A DNA stretch of 64,000 nucleotides from Halococcus salsus (GTDB taxonomy: Archaea; Halobacteriota; Halobacteria; Halobacteriales; Halococcaceae), in contig NZ_JAAAJC010000001.1 of NCBI RefSeq assembly GCF_009900715.1, positions 1,167,216 through 1,231,215 on the forward strand, written 5' to 3'. The position numbers and the translations under genes were made by a program. The notes under the pieces are model-generated. The model ran no database searches, was not told the origin of the DNA, and saw only the letters and a list, made by a program, of their open reading frames with translations. Shown here piece after piece: positions 3,127 to 20,836 of the stretch; the first letter of the stretch is position 1, and every line of letters starts with the position of its first letter.

Positions 3127-4380
3127 TCAGCGGTAGCCGAGCGCGCGGAGCCGGTCGTCGATCGCGAGGCGTTCGGTGGCGACGCCCTCGGACTCGGGGA
3201 GTCGGCTCGCGAGCGCGCGTAGACGATGGGGGTCGGGGTCGTCGGCCGGCGCGCGCTCGGCGGGGTCGGCGACGAGGTCGTAGAGTTCGGGGTCCCAGTC
3301 GCGGTTCGGGTACTCGACGTACTTCTCCGTCGAGGTTCGAAGGGCACGAACCCAGTTCTGCTTCCCGCGGAGCGCCGCGCCGCAGGCCCGGATGTAAGCC
3401 TCGCGGTCGTCGATTCCTTCGTCCGTCGGATCGCGCAGCGACTCGCCGTCGATACTCGCCTCCCAGTCGAACCCGAGCGCGTCGAGCAGCGTCGGGAAGG
3501 TGTCCACTTGGCGACAGACAGCGGTCTCGCGACCCGGTTCGATGTCGGGCCCCGAGAGGACGAGTGGGACGTTCGCGACGTGGTCGAAGACCGTCTCGCC
3601 GTGACCGTTCTCGACGAAGTGGTCGTGGATCGGTGCGGGTGCGAGGCTCTCCGTGAGGCGGTCGAGCCCCCGTTCCATCCTCCGAGTATCGACGCCGAAC
3701 TCGTAGCGGACCTTGTCACGAGCGCGCTTCGTGACCCGGCGGAGGGGGTTGTGCCGCCACGTGATGCTCTCGCCGTGGTCGCCACAGAGCGCGACCACCG
3801 TGTTCTCGGGAACCGATTCGAGGAGGCGTTCGAGATGCGAGTCGAGCGCCGAGAGCGCGCGTTCGTAGGGCCAGCGACCGTACTCCTCGCTGTCGAAGTT
3901 CGGTGGAACCGTGATGGGTTCGTGGAGCTCCCAGAGGTGGAGATAACAGAAGGCGGGCTCCTCGGCTGCGAGCCGCGTTTCGAGTCCGGTCGGCTCCCAG
4001 CCGTCGAACAACGACTCGGTGTTCTCGCGGTAGCGGTAGGTGTCGAACCCCCGGTCGAGGTCGGTGTCGGCCACCAGCGGGCCGGTGACGAACGCGGTGG
4101 TGTCGTAGCCCGCCGCGGAGAGTCGTTCGGCCAGCGTCGAGACGTCGGGCGCGAGTCGGGCCTCCCGGAGCGAGCGGACGCCGTTTCCCTCGGCGTAGCG
4201 GCCAGTCATCATGCTCGCGACACAGGGGGTCGTCGTGGTGGCCGACGCGAAACAGTTGGCGTACGAGCGCCCACGCGCGACGAACGAGTCGAGAAACGGG
4301 GTCTCACCCCAGCTGTCGTCGATCGCGTCGCCGCGCAGACAGTCGACACAGAGGAGAAGCAGGTTCGGCGTGTCGGGCAT
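3127..4380 (-). CDS. Sulfatase-fold hydrolase with Thr at the nucleophile position
   Basis: A 417-residue alkaline phosphatase superfamily enzyme. The start LLLLCVDCLRGD carries the first metal-binding Asp, and VVALCGDHGES (about residue 223) the second site. Where true sulfatases have CxPSR followed by A-S-x-x-T-G, this protein reads TTPCV then ASMMTG, so the nucleophile position is Thr instead of Cys/Ser. This points to phosphatase, phosphodiesterase or transferase chemistry and not FGly-dependent sulfatase activity. There is no clear signal peptide, so it probably acts in the cytoplasm on a glycan intermediate. It sits between the flippase gene and another sulfatase-fold gene in a minus-strand run. 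Confidence 0.75.
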   Translation of the reverse strand: MPDTPNLLLLCVDCLRGDAIDDSWGETPFLDSFVARGRSYANCFASATTTTPCVASMMTGRYAEGNGVRSLREARLAPDVSTLAERLSAAGYDTTAFVTGPLVADTDLDRGFDTYRYRENTESLFDGWEPTGLETRLAAEEPAFCYLHLWELHEPITVPPNFDSEEYGRWPYERALSALDSHLERLLESVPENTVVALCGDHGESITWRHNPLRRVTKRARDKVRYEFGVDTRRMERGLDRLTESLAPAPIHDHFVENGHGETVFDHVANVPLVLSGPDIEPGRETAVCRQVDTFPTLLDALGFDWEASIDGESLRDPTDEGIDDREAYIRACGAALRGKQNWVRALRTSTEKYVEYPNRDWDPELYDLVADPAERAPADDPDPHRLRALASRLPESEGVATERLAIDDRLRALGYR

Positions 4381-4434: not shown

Positions 4435-5853
4435 TCAGGGGATGGGGAGGTTCCGCCGAACCGTGGCGCGAAACCGGTTCGAGAGCCCGACGAGCCCGAC
4501 GAAGTAGACCGCCCCGCCGAACGTGACTAGGCCGACCGTCCACGGCACGCCGGCGGGTGCGGGGCCGCGGGCCGCGAGAACCACGACGCCCATCGCGACG
4601 GCGGCGACGGCCTGGTTCGCGAGTTCGCGGGCGGGTATCGGAACGGCGATGACCTTTCGGAGTAGGGCGTAGCCGAGGACGAGTCCTACCGCCGCCGAGG
4701 TCGTGGTGGCGACCGCCGCGCCGAGCCAGCCGAAGGCGTAGACGAGACCGAGGTTGAGGACGAGGTTGGTGGCGACGAAGACCACGTTGACCCGGAAGGC
4801 GGCGTCGGGGCGGTCGACGGCCGCGAGGACGTTGGTGAGCTGGGACTCGTAGACGTAGAGCAAGCGCCCCACGACGAGCACGACGAGGACGGCGTAGCCC
4901 CGGGCGAACTCCCCGCCGTAGATCGCGAGCACCCGGTCGCCGACGACGAGACAGCCGACGAGGCCGGGCACCACGAACAGCCCCGAGAAGGCGATCGAGT
5001 CGTCGATCAGCCCACGGATCGCCTCCCGGTTCTCGGCGCTCGACAGCCGGCTGATAGCGGGAAAGAGCGTGGTGCTCACCGACGCGCCGAACACCGCGAG
5101 GATCGAGGCGAGGTTCCAGGCGACCTCGTAGATCCCGATCCGGCTCGAACTCACGGCAAAAATTGGAATCGCGAGCACGAGGGTGTCCATCGAGGCGAAG
5201 GTCCGTGATTCGAGCCCCGAGAACCACGAGTACTTGGCGTAGTCGAGCATGCTCGCGACCTGTGCGCGGGTCGGGAGCCGCGGTCGGAGACCGAGCAGTG
5301 CGATACCCACCATGCCCGTGACGAATTCCGCCGCCGCGAATCCCGTCAGGAGCCACTTGACCGTGCCGAGGCCAACGACCACGACCCCGATCTGGAGGAG
5401 GCCGCGAAGCAGGCGGTCGAACGGCCCGAGGAGCGAGGAGAGGTCTACTCGATGGCGGCCTTCGAGCGCGGCCCGGACCTGCCAGACGAGGAGTCCAGTG
5501 AAGAGGAGGACGACCAGGAGAATCGCGGCGTCGGTCCGGAGATAGTCGTTGACCGGGCCGCGGAAGATCAGGATCGCCGCCGCGAGGAGGACGAACGCGA
5601 ACGTCTGCAGCGAGAGCCCGCCGCCGAAGAAGTTCGCCTCGTCGGAGCCCTCGCTGATGCGCTTTCGGGTCGCCATCTGGATGCCCTGGCCGCCGAGGAC
5701 CTTCCCCCAGACCACGACGGCCGCGACGAGGTAGTACTCCCCGAGCACCGCGCTCCCGAGTTCGCGCGCGAGGTAGATCGTCACCACGAAGCCGAAGACC
5801 GAGGTCGCGACCTCCGAGACGAAGTTGACGACGGAGGTCTGGCCGATCCGCAT
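4435..5853 (-). CDS. Oligosaccharide flippase (MOP/Wzx superfamily)
   Basis: A polytopic membrane protein of about 472 residues with 12-14 hydrophobic segments, beginning with an amphipathic helix and the segment ATSVFGFVVTIYLAREL, typical of Wzx/polysaccharide-export flippases and of haloarchaeal AglR. It is expected to move the lipid-linked glycan, or assist its movement, across the cytoplasmic membrane before AglB transfer. The ATG at 5853 (MRIGQTS) is preferred; a GTG at 5877 would add eight residues. It is transcribed with the sulfatase-fold genes on either side. Confidence 0.8.
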   Translation of the reverse strand: MRIGQTSVVNFVSEVATSVFGFVVTIYLARELGSAVLGEYYLVAAVVVWGKVLGGQGIQMATRKRISEGSDEANFFGGGLSLQTFAFVLLAAAILIFRGPVNDYLRTDAAILLVVLLFTGLLVWQVRAALEGRHRVDLSSLLGPFDRLLRGLLQIGVVVVGLGTVKWLLTGFAAAEFVTGMVGIALLGLRPRLPTRAQVASMLDYAKYSWFSGLESRTFASMDTLVLAIPIFAVSSSRIGIYEVAWNLASILAVFGASVSTTLFPAISRLSSAENREAIRGLIDDSIAFSGLFVVPGLVGCLVVGDRVLAIYGGEFARGYAVLVVLVVGRLLYVYESQLTNVLAAVDRPDAAFRVNVVFVATNLVLNLGLVYAFGWLGAAVATTTSAAVGLVLGYALLRKVIAVPIPARELANQAVAAVAMGVVVLAARGPAPAGVPWTVGLVTFGGAVYFVGLVGLSNRFRATVRRNLPIP

Positions 5854-5919
5854 CAGCGACTCACGGGACCCACCCACGCGTCCCTGGGTTGGAGGATCGC
5901 GGGGGAGACACGCGCGTCA

Positions 5920-7290
5920 TCACTCCGCGTAGCCGAGGTCGCGGAGGCGCTGTTTCGTGGTCTCGTCCATCGCCACGGTCGAGAGGTCGTCGTCGGTCGC
6001 GACTATCGTCCGGCGGTGGTCGTCGAGGATCGCCTCGATGCGCTCGCACTCGTCGGGGTGGTCGGCCGCGACGTCCGCCTCTTCGTCGGGATCACTCCGA
6101 AGATCGTAGAGCGCGCCCGTCCCGTCGCGCTCGACGTACTTCCAGCGACGGTCGCGGTAGGCGTAGCGGTGCTCGCCCTCGCCGGTGTTCTCGGCCGACC
6201 AATCCCCGACGACGTGCTCGCGCGGCCACTCCCCGGTTCCGTCGAGCAGCGGGCGAAGGCTGTGGCCGTGGAAGGCTTCGGACTGCGTCCCGCCCGCGTA
6301 GTCCACGATGGTCGGGGTCAGGTCGAGCAGTCCGACGAGTTCGTCGTGCGTCTTCGGCTCGTTGGCTCCGGTTCCGGGGTCGACCACCAGCGGGACGTGG
6401 AGCACCTCGTCGAAGAAGGTCTGTGAGTGGCCGAACTCTCCATGCTCGCCGAGCGCTTCACCGTGGTCGGCGGTGAGTACGATCATGGTGTCCTCGCCCC
6501 AGTTGCGGCGGACGGAATCGACGAGGCGACCGATCTCGGCATCGGCGAAGCGGGTCTCGGCGTCGTAGAGGTCGATCAGGGTCTCGCGTTCGTCGGGGGT
6601 CAGGTTTTCGGGGTCCTCAACCATCGTCCGACGGAGGCGCACCGCCTCGCGTTCGTCCACCGGGTCGAACCCCAGGGCGCGCTGGTGGCGCTCGGGTGGG
6701 AGGTAGGGGTGGTGGACGTCCATGTAGTGGACCCAACCGAATCGCGGCCCTTCGGACTGTTTTTCGGCCCACGCGAGTGCCTTGTCGGTGATCTCGTCGG
6801 CGCGGACGTAGGCCGAGCCGAAGGAGAGGCCGGCCTCCTTCTCGGCGGTGTCGACCGCGCCCGAGAGGAGTCGGTAGAGCGCGCCGTCCTCGTCGAGTCG
6901 GCTCTTGACGACCTGCTTGAGTCGTGCGAGCTGGGAGGGATCCGTTTTGGAATCGAAGAAGCGGTCGAAGCCGCGGTCGTAGCCGAACTCCGCCGAGAGA
7001 TAGAGGTTCGAGTGAAAGCCGGCGGTGCGATAGGCATCGGGGAGCGCCTCGGGGAGGAGGGTCTGGTTTTCGGAGACCCGCTCGTAACCGCCGTACATCA
7101 GCGCCGTCGCGGAGGTCAGGATCGAGGGGAAGGAGGCGCGGGTCGCGCACGCGTGGGCGAACGCGTTCTCGAAGCGGTGGCCGCCGGCCGCGAGCGCGTC
7201 GATGGCCGGGGTCGTCTCGCGGCCGTAGCCGTAGCAGGAGAGGTGGTCGGCCCGGAGCGAGTCGACGGTGATGAACAGCACGTCTCGCAT
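5920..7290 (-). CDS. Sulfatase-fold hydrolase with Thr at the nucleophile position
   Basis: A 456-residue sulfatase-superfamily protein. Landmarks are the first metal site FITVDSLRADHL near the N-terminus, the HxxD-type lid HYMDVHHPYLPP, the second metal strand VLTADHGEALGEHGEFGH, and a C-terminal region with YRDRRWKYV. The expected CxPSR element is replaced by TRASF before P-S-I-L-T, again Thr at the nucleophile site and no formylglycine cysteine. The ATG at 7290 is chosen because it starts directly at the conserved first strand; longer in-frame starts would add a basic, low-complexity stretch from the repeat-like intergenic region. Probably acts on the glycans made by neighbouring genes. 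Confidence 0.75.
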   Translation of the reverse strand: MRDVLFITVDSLRADHLSCYGYGRETTPAIDALAAGGHRFENAFAHACATRASFPSILTSATALMYGGYERVSENQTLLPEALPDAYRTAGFHSNLYLSAEFGYDRGFDRFFDSKTDPSQLARLKQVVKSRLDEDGALYRLLSGAVDTAEKEAGLSFGSAYVRADEITDKALAWAEKQSEGPRFGWVHYMDVHHPYLPPERHQRALGFDPVDEREAVRLRRTMVEDPENLTPDERETLIDLYDAETRFADAEIGRLVDSVRRNWGEDTMIVLTADHGEALGEHGEFGHSQTFFDEVLHVPLVVDPGTGANEPKTHDELVGLLDLTPTIVDYAGGTQSEAFHGHSLRPLLDGTGEWPREHVVGDWSAENTGEGEHRYAYRDRRWKYVERDGTGALYDLRSDPDEEADVAADHPDECERIEAILDDHRRTIVATDDDLSTVAMDETTKQRLRDLGYAE

Positions 7291-7768
7291 CGTTCGTTTC
7301 GAGTCCTCCCTACGGCTTTGAGTACCTTTCCCTCCGTCGTCGGTCGGGTTTTCGACGGACGAACTGGCTCGGTAGGAGGTCGGTGCGGTGGTGGTGTAGT
7401 GCGGGTGCGGTGGTGGTGCGGTTACGATACGGGATGCTGTGGCGCGCGCTCGCGACCGGTCCGAACGAGAGTGAGGGCCGGTCGCGGACACTGTGCGAGG
7501 GATGAGCACCGCAGGGAGCGGTGCGAGGTTCGACTGAAAGGAGAACCTCGATTGCGAACGGGGAACGAAGTGACCCGTGAGCGAAGCGAGCGAGGAGCGC
7601 AGTCGGCTGGGGAGGCGTGTGGCTGTCGTGGGGCGGTGCTGTGCGGTCTCTCGTTTGCGTCGGGTATTGCCATCGCCGCATCAGTCATCAACTATCCACC
7701 CGGTCGTCTGCGTCAAGCCCGAACGGAAAAGGCGTTAACCCACGCTCCTCGACAGCAAAACGAGAACC
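7291..7768. other. Gene-free divergent region with repeat-like sequence
   Basis: A 478-bp spacer between divergent genes. Short open frames are present on both strands but lack recognisable domains and show repetitive codon patterns (runs of GGTGCGGTGGTGG and GAGCGAAGCGAGCGAGG). The segment at 7641-7667 is nearly the same as 16532-16557, upstream of tyrA. It must hold the promoters for both flanking genes, but no convincing TATA box stands out. Confidence 0.6.
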
Positions 7769-8716: not shown

Positions 8717-9742
8717 CTATTGCGCCGGTTCCCCGCGACCGACGACGCGTCTGAGAGCCTGCGCGTAGCCTTCGGCGATCCGCGCGTAATCGAACGCCTT
8801 GACGTACTCTCGGAAGGCCTCGACGTCGCGGTCGGGCGCTCGCCCTACCGCGCGGGCGACGCTCTCCGGGGTCGGGTCGCAGGCTTCGACGAACTCGCCG
8901 AATCGCTCCTCGACGCGACCGTGGAGCCCGACGGTCGGTAGCCCCGCGGCGGCGTATTCGAGCACCTTCAGGGTGTGCGGGTCGTCGACCAGCGCGATTC
9001 CCACGTCCGCCGCGTGGAGGTAGCCCGGAACCCGTTCGTGCGCGACGCTCCCGAGGAAGACGACGTTCTCACGCTCGGCGGCGGTCCGTTCGACCAGCCC
9101 TTCGAGCGACCCCGTGCCGAGCACTACGAGGGTCCAGTCGTCGAGGTGAGCCATCGCGCCGAGGAGGGCTTCGACGTGATAGATGGGTTCGAGCCCGCCG
9201 ACGTAGACCGCGAGAGGTGTGTTCGGGTCGACGTCGGCATCCGCGAGGTGGCTCCGTGCGTCCGCGACGGCCTCTTCCTCGGGGTCGGCGAACGCGTCGA
9301 AGGACACCCCGAGGTTGGTCTCCGTCGCGGCGCGGGCGTACCGCTCGACGCGCGGGCGCTCCTCGTCGTAGACGTAGAGCGTGTGGTCCGCGACCCGGAA
9401 GGCGACGTTCTCGGCGAGGCGCACCCCGAGCGAGAGCGCGGTGTCGCGGGTTTCGGTGAACTGTCGGATCGGGTCGACGTGGTCGACGACCAACGGAACT
9501 CCCGCGAGCTTCAGCCCCGCCCCCGCGAACGCACCGGCCCGCGTCGTCCCGATAACCACGTCGTACGTGGCGCGTTCGCGGAACGAGGCCAGCGAAGTTC
9601 GCGGGGTCGTGCCCCGGAGCGTGACGCGAAACCCGCGTGCTTCGAGCTGCTCCGCGATCCGACGGCGACCCACGCTGATCGTCTCGGGTTTGTCCGGCGT
9701 GAGCCAGAGCACGCGAATCGGGTTCTCGATGTCCTCAGCCAT
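8717..9742 (-). CDS. Family 4 (GT-B) glycosyltransferase
   Basis: A 341-residue GT-B enzyme. The N-terminal half begins RVLWLTPDKPETISVGRRR, and the C-terminal half has the acceptor/donor cleft strands LAVYVGGLEPIYHVEALL and VVLGTGSLEGL, then the nucleotide-sugar loop DDPHTLKVLEYAAAGLP (position of the E-x7-E motif). There is no membrane segment. The start overlaps the 3' end of the upstream GT2 gene by 8 bp, so the two are probably translated from one message and act in one glycan pathway. Confidence 0.85.
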   Translation of the reverse strand: MAEDIENPIRVLWLTPDKPETISVGRRRIAEQLEARGFRVTLRGTTPRTSLASFRERATYDVVIGTTRAGAFAGAGLKLAGVPLVVDHVDPIRQFTETRDTALSLGVRLAENVAFRVADHTLYVYDEERPRVERYARAATETNLGVSFDAFADPEEEAVADARSHLADADVDPNTPLAVYVGGLEPIYHVEALLGAMAHLDDWTLVVLGTGSLEGLVERTAAERENVVFLGSVAHERVPGYLHAADVGIALVDDPHTLKVLEYAAAGLPTVGLHGRVEERFGEFVEACDPTPESVARAVGRAPDRDVEAFREYVKAFDYARIAEGYAQALRRVVGRGEPAQ

Positions 9743-10688
9743 CGTCGGGCTCCGCGGAGCGATACCGAAGGGTCGCGTAGACGTATCCGAACCCGACGAG
9801 GCCTGTGAGCACGAGGAGCGCGAGGAGTTGGCTCGCGCGCTCGCGTGAGGGATGTCGAACGAGGCCAGCGAGCCGCCGCGGGAGGGATCTCGTCAGAAGC
9901 AGCCCCAGAAACGCGCTCTCCTCGCCCGTCGAGTCGGGGACGAACGACTCCATCGCGCGCTTCGAGTAGCCCTGCCAGAACGCCCGCCCCGCGAGCCAGC
10001 GTGGCCTCGTCCGGTAGTCGAACACCTTGTGGCCGACGAGCGCGCCGGGATCGTACCACACCCGTTCGCCGTACTCGCGTTCGAGCCGGGCACAGAATTC
10101 GGTTTCACCGCCCTGGAGCTTGTTGTCCCCCTTCCGACCACCGATCTCGGTGTCGAAGCCACCCAGGTCGAGGAAGACCTCGCGGCGGAAGGAGAGGTTC
10201 GAACCGTTGGTGTTGCGGACCTCGCCCGCGTGGTGTTCGTCGCCAGCGGGACCGAACCCCCGGTGGGTGACGCCGACGAGCCAGTAGAACTCCGCCGGGA
10301 GGAATTTCGGCCTGCCGGCGACCCACTCGGGCGTCATCCGCCCGCCGACGGCGAGCGAATCGTGGTCCTCGTAGGCCGCGACGAGACGGGCTATCCACTC
10401 CGGGTCGGCCCGCGCGTCGTCGTCGAGGAAGGCCACCACGTCGCCGTCGGCGACCTCGGCCCCCGTGTTTCGGCTCTCGAGCAGTCCCGAGTTCTCGTCG
10501 TTTTCGTGGATCGTGACGTCGTCGTGACTGGCGTAGGTCCCCCGAACCCGGTCGGCGAGCGCGGGGTCGCCGTCGACCACCACGACGAGTTCGGCGGGGT
10601 GGGTGTTGGCGAGCACGCTGTCGGCGGCGGCGCGGAAGTCCGAGAACAGCGCCGGGTCGTAGGTACAGAGCACCACTGACACCCGCAT
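9735..10688 (-). CDS. AglG/AglI-type family 2 glycosyltransferase
   Basis: A 317-residue GT2 transferase. The opening strand is VSVVLCTYDP and the DxD-type motif FLDDDA lies at residues 87-92. A catalytic-domain stretch GGFDTEIGGRKGDNKLQGGETEF follows (shown in part; acidic base near 205), and one or two C-terminal hydrophobic segments would anchor it (LLALLVLTGLVGFGYVY). The layout resembles Haloferax AglG, which adds a hexuronic acid to the dolichyl-linked glycan, and the gene sits head to head with aglB. The ATG at 10688 is preferred because the GT2 strand begins there; a GTG at 10709 adds seven residues. Confidence 0.8.
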   Translation of the reverse strand: MRVSVVLCTYDPALFSDFRAAADSVLANTHPAELVVVVDGDPALADRVRGTYASHDDVTIHENDENSGLLESRNTGAEVADGDVVAFLDDDARADPEWIARLVAAYEDHDSLAVGGRMTPEWVAGRPKFLPAEFYWLVGVTHRGFGPAGDEHHAGEVRNTNGSNLSFRREVFLDLGGFDTEIGGRKGDNKLQGGETEFCARLEREYGERVWYDPGALVGHKVFDYRTRPRWLAGRAFWQGYSKRAMESFVPDSTGEESAFLGLLLTRSLPRRLAGLVRHPSRERASQLLALLVLTGLVGFGYVYATLRYRSAEPDDG

Positions 10689-10773
10689 GCGCTGGCTGGG
10701 ATCGGTCACGGCATAGCCCTTTTCGTTTCGGTCGTCGGGCGGGGAGAGGACTCACGTCGGGCGTTTCACAAGC

Positions 10774-10779
10774 TTTATG
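10774..10779 (+). promoter_or_regulatory. TATA-like box of aglB
   Basis: TTTATG at 10774-10779 is centred about 28 nt before the ATG at 10804. That spacing places transcription start at or next to the ATG, giving a leaderless message. It also argues against the upstream in-frame ATG at 10777, which lies inside the box. Confidence 0.55.
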
Positions 10780-10803: not shown

Positions 10804-13731
10804 ATGAGCCAACGCCGGGAACGTCTCGCCGATTCGGTTCCCGACCCGGTTCTCGACGCGGTCGCGTCGTGGTATCACGTCCCGGTTCTCCTCCTCCTCG
10901 TCGCGTTCATGCTCTGGATACGGGTCCGCAACTGGCGGAACTTCATCGTCGAGGGCCAGGTCTACTTCAGCGGCAACGACGCCTGGTACCACCTCCGGCA
11001 GGTCCAGTACACCGTCCGAAACTGGCCCAGCACGATGCCGATGGACCCCTGGACCGGTTTCCCCGAGGGCGCGACGGTCGGCCAGTTCGGCACCCTCTAC
11101 GACCAGCTCGTCGCCACGGCGGCGCTGGTCGTCGGCGGCGGCAGTCCATCGGCCCAGACCACCGCGCTCACGTTGCTGTTCGCGCCGGCGGTGCTGGGAA
11201 CGCTGGTGGCGATCCCCGCTTACTTCCTCGGCAAGCGGTTCGGCGGGCGGCTCGGCGGACTGGTCGGCGTCGCGGTGCTCGCGTTCTCGCCCGGTTCCTT
11301 CCTCTCGCGTTCGATCGCCGGCTTCTCCGACCACCACGCCGCCGAGGTGTTCTTCCAGGTCCTCGCGGTCGCGCTCCTCGTCGTCGCCATCGTGGTCGGC
11401 GAGCGCGAGAAGCCGATCTACGAACAGTTCGTCGAGCGCGACGTCTCGAACCTCCGAAAGCCTGTCGGCTGGGCGGCGCTCGCCGGGCTCGGCTTCACGC
11501 TCTACGTCTGGTCCTGGCCACCCGGCGTGCTCCTCGTTGGGGTCTTCGGCGTCTTCCTGCTCGTGGCGCTCCCCCTCCAGTTCCTCCGGGACGAGAGCCC
11601 CGAACACCTCGCGATAGTGGGCGCGGTCTCGCTCGGCGTCGCCGGGGTACTGCTGCTCGCGACGTTCGACACCACCGAGGTCAGCGCGTCGAGCTTCTCG
11701 CTGCTCCAACCCCTGCTCGCGCTCGTCGGTGCCGTCGGCTGTGTCTTCCTCGCGTGGCTCGCGCGCGTCGTCGAACGGAGCGACTATCCCAGCTACGCCT
11801 ACCCCGGCACGATCCTCGGGCTGTTCGTCGCCGTCGTGGTCGTGATGGCGGTCGCCCTCCCGGACCTGCTCGGTTTCTTCGTGAATCAGATCGTCCGTAC
11901 GATCGGGCTGGGGTCGAACGCGACCGCCCTCACCGTCGGCGAGGCACAGCCGCCGTACAGCACGGGCGCTCCGTTCGGTCAGGCGGTGAGTCAGGCCGTC
12001 GGCTTCCTCTTCAACTCCTACGCGTTCGCGCTCGTCGGGGGTGCGGTGGGGGCGGTGTTGATGCTGTTCGCCCTCGCGCGTGGCCGACTGAAACACCGAA
12101 CGGCGGCCGGGTTCGTGCTGCTCTGGACCGGCTTCATGCTCGCCGCGACCCTCACCCAGTCGCGGTTCGATTACTACCTCGTGACGCCGGTCGCGGTGCT
12201 GAACGCGTACCTCGTCGGCTGGGTCGTCGACTACTTCGGTGAGACCGACACCCGCGCGACCCTCCGAAGCCTCCGCCTCCGTCAGGTCCTCACCGTGGTC
12301 GTGGTGGTGCTGTTCATCACCGCACCGCTCGCGGTCGGCGGGAGTGCGGGCACGGTGACCACCGCCGGGAGCTACGCCGACCAGGGCTCGACCCCCGGAT
12401 CGACCGTCCAGGGCTGGGACGGGGCGCTGGAGTGGCTCAACACCAGCACGCCCGCCGAGGGCACCTACGGCGGTGCGGACAACGAGATGGGCTACTACGA
12501 GCGCTACGACCGCACGGACGACTTCGAGTATCCGGACGGCTCCTACGGGGTCATGTCGTGGTGGGACTACGGCCACTGGATCACCGTGCTCGGCCATCGG
12601 ATCCCGGTGGCGAACCCGTTCCAGCAGAACGCCCACGAGGCCGCGAACTTCCTGCTCGCGCCGAACGAGTCCCGCGCCAACCAGATCGCGAGCACGCCCG
12701 AAGGGGAAGGCGACCGGTACGTGATGATCGACTGGCGGATGGGTGACGTCGCCGGCGGTGCGCTGTACACCGTACCGTACACCTGGTACAACGACGGCCC
12801 GATCTCGCTCGCCGACGACGTGTTCGTGGTCGCGAACCAGACCTCGGGGAGCCAGTTCGTCGGGTACAACCAGCGCCACTACGAGACGATGCGGACCCGG
12901 CTCTACGGCTTCCACGGCTCGGCGATCGAGCCCGAACCGGTCGTGATCGACTACGACACGACGCAGGCGACCTCCAGCGGCGTGCAGGCCAGGGTCACGA
13001 GCGGCAACCATCCCACGATCCGGGAGTTCGACACCATGAGCGACGCACGCGCCTACGTCAGAAACGACAGCACCGCCCAGATCGGTGGCGTCGGGAAGTA
13101 CTCCGAGGAGTACGTCCCCGCGCTCCAGCACTACCGGCTGGTCAACGCGACGGAGACGAGCGGTCTCCTGAGCTCGCAGTCGTTCTACCAGTCCCTGATC
13201 AATCAGAACCAATCGACGGGACTGAGCCCGAACGAGCTCTACGCCACCCCGCAGAGCTGGGTCAAGACCTTCGAGCGGGTCGACGGGGCGACCGTCGAGG
13301 GCCAGGGACCGCCGAACAGCACCGTCGAGGCCAGCGTCGAGCTACAGATGCCCCCCTCACCGGTGCTCGACGACACGTTCACCTACACCCAGCGGGCGAA
13401 CACCTCGGCCGACGGCTCGTTCACGATGACCCTGCCGTACTCCACGACGGGCTACGACCAGTGGGGCCCGGAGCAGGGCGCGACAAACGTCTCGATCCGG
13501 GCGACGGGCCCGTACACGTTCGAGACGACGGGCGCGAACGACACCGGCCCGAGCACGACCGTCGACGTCCCCGAGGGCGCGGTGATCGGCCGGACCGACG
13601 GCCCGGTGACCGTCGACCTCCAGCAGGGGTCGGCGTCGGATGCGAACGCCTCGAACGCAACGACGAACGCCTCGGCCAGCTCGAAACGCGCCCCCGTCGC
13701 TGAGGGGCCCGCTGGGAGCGTGGTACGATGA
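10804..13731 (+). CDS. aglB: Oligosaccharyltransferase AglB
   Basis: Transfers the dolichyl-linked glycan to Asn in N-x-S/T sequons of exported proteins on the outer face of the membrane. The 975-residue protein has an N-terminal block of 11-13 membrane segments, with the metal-binding GNDAWYH loop at about residues 57-63 (Asp59), and a large extracellular C-terminal domain carrying WWDYGHW at residues 586-592, the hallmark STT3/AglB motif. The Ser/Thr-Asn-rich C-terminus contains sequons of its own. The start at 10804 is chosen because the TATA-like box overlaps the upstream ATG. The gene runs directly into the DUF368 transporter with an ATGA overlap and is head to head with the AglG-like gene. 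Confidence 0.96.
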   Translation: MSQRRERLADSVPDPVLDAVASWYHVPVLLLLVAFMLWIRVRNWRNFIVEGQVYFSGNDAWYHLRQVQYTVRNWPSTMPMDPWTGFPEGATVGQFGTLYDQLVATAALVVGGGSPSAQTTALTLLFAPAVLGTLVAIPAYFLGKRFGGRLGGLVGVAVLAFSPGSFLSRSIAGFSDHHAAEVFFQVLAVALLVVAIVVGEREKPIYEQFVERDVSNLRKPVGWAALAGLGFTLYVWSWPPGVLLVGVFGVFLLVALPLQFLRDESPEHLAIVGAVSLGVAGVLLLATFDTTEVSASSFSLLQPLLALVGAVGCVFLAWLARVVERSDYPSYAYPGTILGLFVAVVVVMAVALPDLLGFFVNQIVRTIGLGSNATALTVGEAQPPYSTGAPFGQAVSQAVGFLFNSYAFALVGGAVGAVLMLFALARGRLKHRTAAGFVLLWTGFMLAATLTQSRFDYYLVTPVAVLNAYLVGWVVDYFGETDTRATLRSLRLRQVLTVVVVVLFITAPLAVGGSAGTVTTAGSYADQGSTPGSTVQGWDGALEWLNTSTPAEGTYGGADNEMGYYERYDRTDDFEYPDGSYGVMSWWDYGHWITVLGHRIPVANPFQQNAHEAANFLLAPNESRANQIASTPEGEGDRYVMIDWRMGDVAGGALYTVPYTWYNDGPISLADDVFVVANQTSGSQFVGYNQRHYETMRTRLYGFHGSAIEPEPVVIDYDTTQATSSGVQARVTSGNHPTIREFDTMSDARAYVRNDSTAQIGGVGKYSEEYVPALQHYRLVNATETSGLLSSQSFYQSLINQNQSTGLSPNELYATPQSWVKTFERVDGATVEGQGPPNSTVEASVELQMPPSPVLDDTFTYTQRANTSADGSFTMTLPYSTTGYDQWGPEQGATNVSIRATGPYTFETTGANDTGPSTTVDVPEGAVIGRTDGPVTVDLQQGSASDANASNATTNASASSKRAPVAEGPAGSVVR

Positions 13732-14678
13732 GCCGTCGGAGCTCCATGCGGGCGCTGGTCGTCGTCTACCTCAAGGGCATCTTCATGGGTGCGGCGGACG
13801 CGGTGCCGGGCGTCTCCGGCGGGACGATCGCGCTCATCACGGGGATCTACGAGCGGCTCATCGCCGCGATCACCGCCCTCGACCCGCGGGCGCTCCGCTA
13901 CCTCCCGCGACTCCACCGCCGGACCGGCCGCGCCGCCTTCCGCGACGCGCTGGTCGAGATGGACATCCCGTTCCTGATGGCGCTGGGGCTGGGTATCGCG
14001 ACGGCGCTCGTGACCGTCGCACGGCTCATGGCGTACGCCTTCGAGACGTATCCGGCCTACGTCGCCGCCCTGTTCTTCGGGTTGATCGCCGCTTCGGCGG
14101 TCGTCCTCTACGAGTACGTCTCGCTCGATACGCCGCGCCGCGTCGCGGTCGCGGTGTTCGGGTTCGCGCTGGCGTTCGTCGTCTCCGGTCCCGAGGTCGG
14201 GAGTTCGCTCCCGAACTCGCCGACGATCGTCCTCTTCGCGGGCGGGATCGCCATCGCCGGGATGATCCTCCCCGGGATCTCTGGGGCGTTCTTCCTCTAC
14301 GTTCTCGGCCAGTACGAGTACCTGAGCAACACCCTCACGACGTTCACGAACCGTCTCGCAGGTTTGCTCTCGGGAGGGTCGGTCGCCGGGTTGGTCGAAC
14401 CCGGGATCGTCATCGTCGCGTTCGGGGTCGGCGCGCTGGTCGGGCTGTTCTCGATCTCGTACGCCATCCGATGGGCGCTGGCGAACTACCGTGCCGCGAC
14501 CCTCACGTTCCTCGTGAGCCTGATGGTCGGCGCGCTTCGCCTTCCGGTGACCGATATCCTCGACCACACCTCGAACCCCGGTCCGACGGTGATCGGGACG
14601 ATCCTGGTCGTGGCCGTTCTCGGTGGCGTACTCGTGCTCGTCGTCGACCGGTTCACCGAGGACATCGAATTCTCCTGA
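13728..14678 (+). CDS. popT: DUF368 membrane protein, PopT-type polyprenyl-phosphate transporter
   Basis: A 316-residue integral membrane protein with about eight to ten hydrophobic segments. The family signature is GAADAVPGVSGGTIALITGIYERL near the N-terminus (in part) and its internal repeat GMILPGISGAFFLYVLGQYEY near residue 190, the two-fold P-G-[VI]-S-G pattern of DUF368. Bacterial DUF368 proteins (PopT) return undecaprenyl phosphate to the cytoplasmic side. Here the start codon overlaps the aglB stop (ATGA), so translation is coupled to the enzyme that releases dolichyl (pyro)phosphate outside. Recycling of the dolichyl carrier is the inferred role. Confidence 0.88.
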   Translation: MSRRSSMRALVVVYLKGIFMGAADAVPGVSGGTIALITGIYERLIAAITALDPRALRYLPRLHRRTGRAAFRDALVEMDIPFLMALGLGIATALVTVARLMAYAFETYPAYVAALFFGLIAASAVVLYEYVSLDTPRRVAVAVFGFALAFVVSGPEVGSSLPNSPTIVLFAGGIAIAGMILPGISGAFFLYVLGQYEYLSNTLTTFTNRLAGLLSGGSVAGLVEPGIVIVAFGVGALVGLFSISYAIRWALANYRAATLTFLVSLMVGALRLPVTDILDHTSNPGPTVIGTILVVAVLGGVLVLVVDRFTEDIEFS

Positions 14679-19459: not shown

Positions 19460-20836
19460 ATGACACTCTTCGGTACCGCGGGTATCCGCGGTCCGGCAAT
19501 ATCTCGGGTGACGCCCGAACTCGCGCTCGCGGTCGGCCGGGCGGCGGGGCTCGACGCCCGCGCGACCGACGGCGTGGACCCGACGTTCGTCGTCGCACGT
19601 GACGGTCGCGAGACGGGGTCCGGGCTCGCCGCCGCCCTCGAAGCGGGACTCGAAAGCGCCGGTGTGGCCGTGCGCCGTGCAGGCGTGCTTCCGACGCCGG
19701 CGCTCGCGTTCGCCTCACGGGGGCGACGCGGCGTGATGGTCACCGCGAGCCACAACCCACCAGCCGACAACGGTCTGAAGTTCTTTCACGACGGTCAGGA
19801 GTACGACGACGACGCCGAGGCCCGCATCGAGAGCCGAGTAGAGGAAGACCCCGACCCGGTGGCATGGAACGAGTGGGGAACCGCGGAGCGACTGCACCCG
19901 CTCGGGGCGTACCGCGAGGCGGTCACGGACTACGCGGAGGAGTACGGCGCGGCGCTCGACGGCCTCACCGTCGTCGTCGACTGTGGCAACGGAATGGCGG
20001 GCCGGGCGACCCCGCAGGTACTCGACGAACTCGGTGCGGACGTCACGGCGCTGAACGCGAACGTCGACGGGTCGTTCCCCGCTCGTGGGTCGAAACCCAC
20101 ACCCGCCACCCTCGGGGACGTTCGGGCGTTCCTCGCGGACGGGGATGCCGACCTCGGGTTCGCCCACGACGGCGACGCCGACCGGATCGTCGTCCTCGAT
20201 TCGACTGGTGAGATCGTCCACGAGGACACGATCGTCGCTGTGCTCGCCGAACGGTACACCCGTGCGAGCGACGCCGCAGACCCGGTCGTGGTGACGACGC
20301 CGAACGCCTCCTCCCGGATCGACGACCGCGTCACCGCGGCGGGTGGGCGGGTCGAACGGGTGCGTCTGGGGGCGCTCCACGAGGGGGTCACGGCGGCATA
20401 CGCGGCGGGGACGGACGACACGCGCGTGGTGTTCGCGGCCGAGCCCTGGAAACACGTCCACCCCGAACACGGCCCCTGGATAGACGGCGTGGCGAGCGCC
20501 GCGGTCCTGGCACGGTTAGTCGCCGAGAGCGGTCTCGATGCGCTTCGTGAACCCGTTCGGGAACTCCCCTACCGAAAGGTGAGTCTCGACTGTCCCGACG
20601 ACCGGAAGGAACCGGTGATGGAGCAGCTCGCGACGACCCTCTCGGACGAGTTCCCCGACGGCGAAGTCGCGACCGAACACGGGGTCCGCATCGAGCGCGA
20701 CGACGGCTGGGTACTGGTGCGCCAGAGTGGTACCGAACCGAAGGTCAGGATCTACGCCGAGAGCGAACAGGTAGACGCACTCATCGACCGAACCCGCCGG
20801 GTCATCGAGACCGCCGTCGACCGACCGACCTCCTGA
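19460..20836 (+). CDS. glmM: Phosphoglucosamine/phosphohexose mutase
   Basis: Alpha-D-phosphohexomutase superfamily, 458 residues. The phosphoserine loop TASHNP is at residues 95-100 (Ser97), the Mg-binding loop DGDADR at 237-242, the sugar loop region EPWKHVHP near 332, and the phosphate-binding loop RQSGTEPKVR near 423. A GlmM-type enzyme interconverts glucosamine-6-P and glucosamine-1-P for UDP-GlcNAc, but phosphomannomutase/phosphoglucomutase activity cannot be excluded in archaea. The start MTLFGTAGIRG is the family N-terminus. The product could supply the glycosylation genes nearby. Confidence 0.85.
   Translation: MTLFGTAGIRGPAISRVTPELALAVGRAAGLDARATDGVDPTFVVARDGRETGSGLAAALEAGLESAGVAVRRAGVLPTPALAFASRGRRGVMVTASHNPPADNGLKFFHDGQEYDDDAEARIESRVEEDPDPVAWNEWGTAERLHPLGAYREAVTDYAEEYGAALDGLTVVVDCGNGMAGRATPQVLDELGADVTALNANVDGSFPARGSKPTPATLGDVRAFLADGDADLGFAHDGDADRIVVLDSTGEIVHEDTIVAVLAERYTRASDAADPVVVTTPNASSRIDDRVTAAGGRVERVRLGALHEGVTAAYAAGTDDTRVVFAAEPWKHVHPEHGPWIDGVASAAVLARLVAESGLDALREPVRELPYRKVSLDCPDDRKEPVMEQLATTLSDEFPDGEVATEHGVRIERDDGWVLVRQSGTEPKVRIYAESEQVDALIDRTRRVIETAVDRPTS

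Follow-up and report, generated by a model that had tools for sequence, protein, structure and literature searches.

Conserved pairing of aglB with a DUF368 (PopT-family) gene in Halobacteria and a proposed role in dolichyl-phosphate recycling

Membrane proteins of the bacterial DUF368 (PopT) and DedA families return undecaprenyl phosphate (PMC9876793; PMC12826051), as the preliminary description of the present locus had stated for DUF368. The family PF04018, formerly DUF368, now carries the Pfam title "Undecaprenyl phosphate translocase-like". A DUF368 protein from the archaeon Haloferax volcanii (HVO_RS12060) at least partly complements a Vibrio vca0040 mutant, and an archaeal function for polyprenyl-phosphate translocases of this family has already been suggested (Sit et al. 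2022, PMC9876793). Characterised archaeal N-glycans are built, with one exception, on a dolichyl monophosphate carrier (PMC4476749). In the accessible archaeal N-glycosylation papers, we found no description of how used dolichyl phosphate is returned to the cytoplasmic side, and the accessible literature yielded no assay of a DUF368 protein with dolichyl phosphate. Our search of openly accessible published papers found none joining "aglB" with "DUF368", or COG2035 with glycosylation. Here, we report an aglB-DUF368 gene pair from Halococcus salsus, its conservation among Halobacteria, and the role that it probably has in the dolichyl-phosphate cycle.

The window (the whole 64,000-nucleotide stretch of DNA analysed) carries an agl cluster in its first 15 kb. 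On the minus strand lie genes for AglJ, which puts the first sugar on dolichyl phosphate (29 to 1111; TIGR04182, 440.8 bits, cut-off 325); a sulfatase-family protein with weak NCBIfam sulfatase matches under cut-off (3127 to 4380); a Wzx/MurJ-type flippase (4435 to 5877; PF01943, PF03023), which may be what flips the charged carrier outward; another sulfatase-family protein (5920 to 7509; PF00884); a group 1 glycosyltransferase (8717 to 9742; PF13692); and AglG, a glucosyl-dolichyl phosphate glucuronosyltransferase (9735 to 10709; NF041394, 449.6 bits, cut-off 440). Divergent from aglG, on the plus strand, are aglB (10804 to 13731) and the DUF368 gene (13728 to 14678). AglJ, AglG, AglB, and a Wzx-type flippase are shared with the agl cluster of Haloferax (HVO_1517 to HVO_1531), but the published boundary of that cluster is HVO_1531 (PMC12852389), with no DUF368 member counted; the H. 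volcanii DUF368 gene would lie just beyond it. Together, the window's cluster, AglB, and the DUF368 protein could cover carrier charging, extension, outward flipping, transfer, and return.

AglB, the archaeal oligosaccharyltransferase of the STT3 family, matched the Pfam domains STT3, AglB_core-like, and AglB_L1 in profile searches and scored 868 bits against NCBIfam TIGR04154 (archaeo_STT3; cut-off 450), which places it in the AglB/archaeal STT3 group; its catalytic motif WWDYG occupies residues 586 to 590 (12559 to 12573, plus strand). A TATA-like TTTATG at 10774 to 10779 has a spacing that would suit a leaderless aglB start at 10804. An alternative start of the open reading frame is possible at 10777. 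The DUF368 start codon (ATG, 13728 to 13730) overlaps the aglB stop codon (TGA, 13729 to 13731), forming the plus-strand ATGA at 13728 to 13731 that had been described at the outset. Both genes are plus-strand coding, with codon-position GC of 0.65/0.48/0.92, and the long minus-strand open reading frames across the pair are a by-product of this codon bias.

The DUF368 protein matched PF04018 with 218 bits (E value, 2e-64; gathering cut-off, 26) over profile positions 1 to 226 of 246. Its two PG[VI]SG motifs, also as first described, are PGVSG at residues 27 to 31 (13806 to 13820, plus strand) and PGISG at residues 182 to 186 (14271 to 14285, plus strand). It has all 18 columns that are invariant across 140 bacterial and archaeal members, both motifs included (P27, G28, S30, G31, T33, P182, G183, S185, and G186). 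The predicted model is all-helical (pLDDT, 93.5; pTM, 0.87), and the N-terminal and C-terminal halves aligned to each other in hhalign (probability, 98.7%; E value, 1.3e-15), so that the protein consists of homologous membrane halves, matching what is expected of a two-repeat transporter. Against the NCBIfam equivalogs it scored 71 bits for PopT (NF052563) and 184 bits for the VIBCH type (NF052564), both under the cut-off of 400; by sequence, it is a relative within the family and an equivalog of neither bacterial transporter. It thus shares with VCA0040 and PopT the PF04018 family, the motifs, the other invariant residues, and a carrier-lipid pathway context, but differs from them in being archaeal, in scoring below those cut-offs, in its position beside an oligosaccharyltransferase gene, and in its expected substrate, which would be dolichyl phosphate rather than undecaprenyl phosphate. 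No PDB structure matched by sequence, and Foldseek gave no match to the model at an E value of ≤0.001; the best VIA-align fold score was to a zinc transporter (Z, 6.7). A solved relative was thus found neither by sequence nor, convincingly, by fold, and the absent match does not amount to a new fold.

Linkage was surveyed in 145 Halobacteria genomes (requested completeness, ≥90%). DUF368 was detected in 144 of these and the AglB core domain likewise in 144; one genome (G021) had AglB with no DUF368 match. Linkage was scored over the 140 genomes in which both genes could be placed, three more having a DUF368 match with no place listed. In 100 of the 140 genomes, DUF368 followed aglB within a few kilobases and in the same orientation; these genomes represent 41 of the 58 genera and 9 of the 10 families, a recurrence that is not due to chance. 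The survey genomes are related to one another, and these counts are not counts of independent events. The changing flanks of the pair are the better argument for linkage. Among 81 linked loci examined with a simple gene caller, the gene immediately 5' of DUF368 was aglB in 78, while the gene 3' of DUF368 came from many different families (the commonest in 12/81). In 33/81 loci, aglB was preceded by a glycosyltransferase gene from the same family as the window's aglG. With aglB so constant before DUF368 and the flanks changing, it is the pair that is the conserved unit and not its neighbourhood. In Haloferax, the genus of HVO_RS12060, DUF368 was present in 15/15 species and lay on the same strand, no more than 3.5 kb from aglB, in all 14 species with both genes on one contig. 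Gene-called examples of wider spacing in Haloferax (G078) and a neighbouring genus (G122) had a UDP-glucose dehydrogenase gene (the AglM enzyme type) between the two. The H. volcanii protein, likewise a haloarchaeal DUF368, was tested by Vibrio complementation only, and the link to aglB is absent from PMC9876793. The survey proposed in the preliminary description, of whether DUF368 follows aglB across haloarchaea, thus came out positive, contrary to the lack of conserved linkage that was named there as a refuting result, and the pairing is real, conserved, and apparently unreported, although the transporter family itself is known.

The junction itself is less uniform than the pairing. At 82 inspected aglB-DUF368 junctions, the DUF368 start codon was within 30 nucleotides of the aglB stop in 55, and the exact −4 overlap was found in 11. 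Shine-Dalgarno-like 4-mers preceded the DUF368 start in 13 of 55 (23.6%), the same as in the control (23.6%). A conserved ATGA junction with a Shine-Dalgarno sequence, tried as a mark of the pair, was given up on these figures, and the earlier claim that translational coupling makes AglB and the DUF368 protein in a fixed ratio was not borne out.

Linkage was missing in 40 of the 140 placed genomes (approximately 29%), mostly those with a divergent, unlinked DUF368 paralogue. When 118 haloarchaeal DUF368 proteins were placed in a tree, one side held 81 linked copies together with 8 unlinked ones, and the other held 29 copies, all of them unlinked and mostly from two families. The linked copies come close to forming one clade (6 label changes, against a mean of approximately 32 when labels were shuffled). 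A wider tree, made with a quick method, recovered all haloarchaeal DUF368 proteins as one clade (support, 100) with the unlinked type as a single group within it (support, 99); acquisition of the paralogue from outside Halobacteria was rejected on this ground. Only 3 of 27 sampled genomes with the unlinked type also had a linked copy. In several of the remaining genomes with the unlinked type, the genes immediately after aglB were ones that lie after DUF368 in other genomes (clusters 10, 5, 4, and 3), which indicates loss of the linked copy from its original position. No DUF368 remnants above background were seen after aglB in unlinked genomes, and no substitute conserved gene was seen there, the neighbours varying. 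The unlinked type adjoins unrelated genes, such as those for an M20 peptidase and a MutS-like protein. Loss of the linked copy, with a divergent DUF368 elsewhere, fits replacement by the paralogue, as would be expected if the function were needed and the paralogue took it over.

Outside Halobacteria, DUF368 was patchy, being found in 27 of approximately 163 genomes of the same phylum. A tblastn search with haloarchaeal AglB gave no match in the vicinity of 20 DUF368 loci taken from elsewhere in the phylum. An STT3 profile search there likewise found STT3 not adjacent to DUF368, with the two 12 to 14 kb apart in three genomes of one family; a linkage general to archaea was rejected on this absence of adjacency. 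In a Thermoplasmata class, DUF368 was present in 13 of 80 genomes, and 8 of the 13 had on one contig a string of genes for PRPP synthetase, AglB, AMMECR1, an amidohydrolase, DUF368, and an inositol phosphatase; two further genomes were consistent with the same string across contig ends. Since the intervening genes differ and the Thermoplasmata DUF368 protein falls outside the haloarchaeal clade, this suggests a second, separate linkage of STT3/AglB with DUF368. As evidence of linkage, a lone pair counts for more than a conserved string of housekeeping genes.

We consider it likely that the proteins encoded by the aglB-DUF368 pair complete the dolichyl-phosphate cycle of N-glycosylation by performing its last two steps. 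AglB, at the outer surface of the membrane, would transfer the glycan from dolichyl-monophosphate-glycan to asparagine, and dolichyl phosphate would remain in the outer leaflet. The carrier being a monophosphate, what AglB leaves would be dolichyl phosphate itself, with no phosphatase needed before return. The two-repeat DUF368 protein would then move it back to the inner leaflet, where AglJ would recharge it, and co-transcription would keep AglB and the DUF368 protein available together. Dolichyl phosphate as substrate, the inward direction, and co-transcription are all three what we infer. The reading with the best support is a recycling role, for which the conserved linkage, the surrounding agl cluster, a carrier that is a monophosphate (PMC4476749, PMC3871713), and the partial complementation (PMC9876793) all speak. 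What is added here to the suggestion of Sit et al. is the tie of DUF368 to the oligosaccharyltransferase. The preliminary description had gone further and taken DUF368 as the archaeal dolichyl-phosphate recycling step; recycling stands, but "the" is an overstatement, given the 27 of approximately 163 other genomes and the presence of DedA-family proteins throughout Halobacteria. In most other archaea of the phylum, which lack DUF368, DedA or something else must act.

How closely the protein is bound to N-glycosylation is a separate matter. DUF368 might return polyprenyl phosphate from several pathways (AglS mannosylation, exopolysaccharides, and lipid-linked sugars), without being dedicated to N-glycosylation, and owe its place near aglB only to AglB being the largest consumer. 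We put this general role at a little short of an even chance: DUF368 is nearly universal in Halobacteria, unlinked genomes included, its unlinked paralogue sits among genes with no part in glycosylation, and the final mannose of the H. volcanii glycan draws on a second pool of dolichyl phosphate (PMC3871713), whereas the repeated pairing with aglB alone, amid changing flanks, argues for a specific tie. At the other extreme, the two proteins might form a dedicated unit, physically or strictly coupled, in which dolichyl phosphate passes straight from AglB to the DUF368 protein and which arose separately in Halobacteria and Thermoplasmata; we regard so tight an arrangement as unlikely. Proteins of the DedA/UptA type (PF09335), carrier flippases with the same proposed job of polyprenyl-phosphate return but from a different Pfam family, were found in 145/145 Halobacteria genomes (1 to 6 copies; the window's genome has five), and DUF368 may therefore be redundant, as one of several recyclers. 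DedA would then account for most of the return, with DUF368 contributing extra capacity when salt or pH is high, as in Vibrio, which accords with the association that Sit et al. drew between DUF368 and sodium, alkaline conditions, and halophiles (PMC9876793). For many DedA proteins, however, the cargo is thought to be other lipids (PMC10127716), the DedA count here is at family level with subfamilies unsplit, and DUF368 has been retained in all but one of the genomes surveyed; on balance, we hold this conditional role possible but rather doubtful.

Two further explanations were considered. The pair might be an ancestral neighbourhood kept by descent with no functional tie, and the linkage does track the species tree, which makes its counts non-independent; yet the other neighbours of the pair were lost over the same span, and the separate linkage in Thermoplasmata also speaks against such inertia, which we judge improbable. 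Gene order by itself would be compatible with either side of the AglB reaction, and the DUF368 protein could accordingly be pictured as flipping the charged carrier, dolichyl-phosphate-glycan, outward to AglB instead of the empty carrier inward. The cluster, however, already has a Wzx/MurJ-type gene, and the bacterial DUF368 relatives return the bare carrier, which makes outward flipping very improbable.

With recycling of dolichyl phosphate as the probable role, the conserved pairing offers one candidate recycler gene per genome, in hosts that are genetically tractable (Haloferax and Halorubrum). It would thereby join a newly found bacterial family of carrier recyclers to protein N-glycosylation, a process held in common with eukaryotes.

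In the window, aglB (10804-13731, plus strand) is preceded by a TATA-like TTTATG (10774-10779), 25 to 30 nt upstream of the ATG at 10804, a position suggesting from sequence that aglB has a leaderless start at 10804 rather than at 10777. The agl cluster upstream includes two sulfatase-family genes (3127-4380 and 5920-7509) adjoining glycosyltransferases, and their products may act on sulfated or similar glycan groups. ARAGORN also made a doubtful tRNA call at 20033-20125 (minus strand), to which no anticodon could be assigned; it is probably false.

Among the sampled Halobacteria genomes, only one (G021, locus L270) had AglB with no DUF368 match; small uncharacterized open reading frames lie downstream of its aglB. 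A divergent haloarchaeal DUF368 paralogue, found mostly in genomes lacking the aglB-linked copy, was represented by 29 copies in the tree, none of them (0/29) beside aglB (loci L112-L118, L121-L125, L127, L129-L135, L137-L141, L144, L145, L147, and L148). Extra copies away from aglB were also seen in Haladaptatus pallidirubidus (plasmid borne; L190) and, as a second copy, in one Haloferax genome (L283; G309:C2).

Elsewhere in the phylum, three genomes from a single other family (G220, G236, and G212; loci L153, L154, and L162) carry DUF368 and STT3 on one strand, with DUF368 12 to 14 kb upstream; the two genes perhaps belong to one large glycan cluster there. In Thermoplasmata, genes for PRPP synthetase, STT3/AglB, AMMECR1, an amidohydrolase, DUF368, and an inositol phosphatase (in some cases followed by enolase) form a string running in one direction and kept across approximately 10 genomes (L197, 603-10221; also L294-L301), which suggests another, second linkage between an oligosaccharyltransferase and DUF368.
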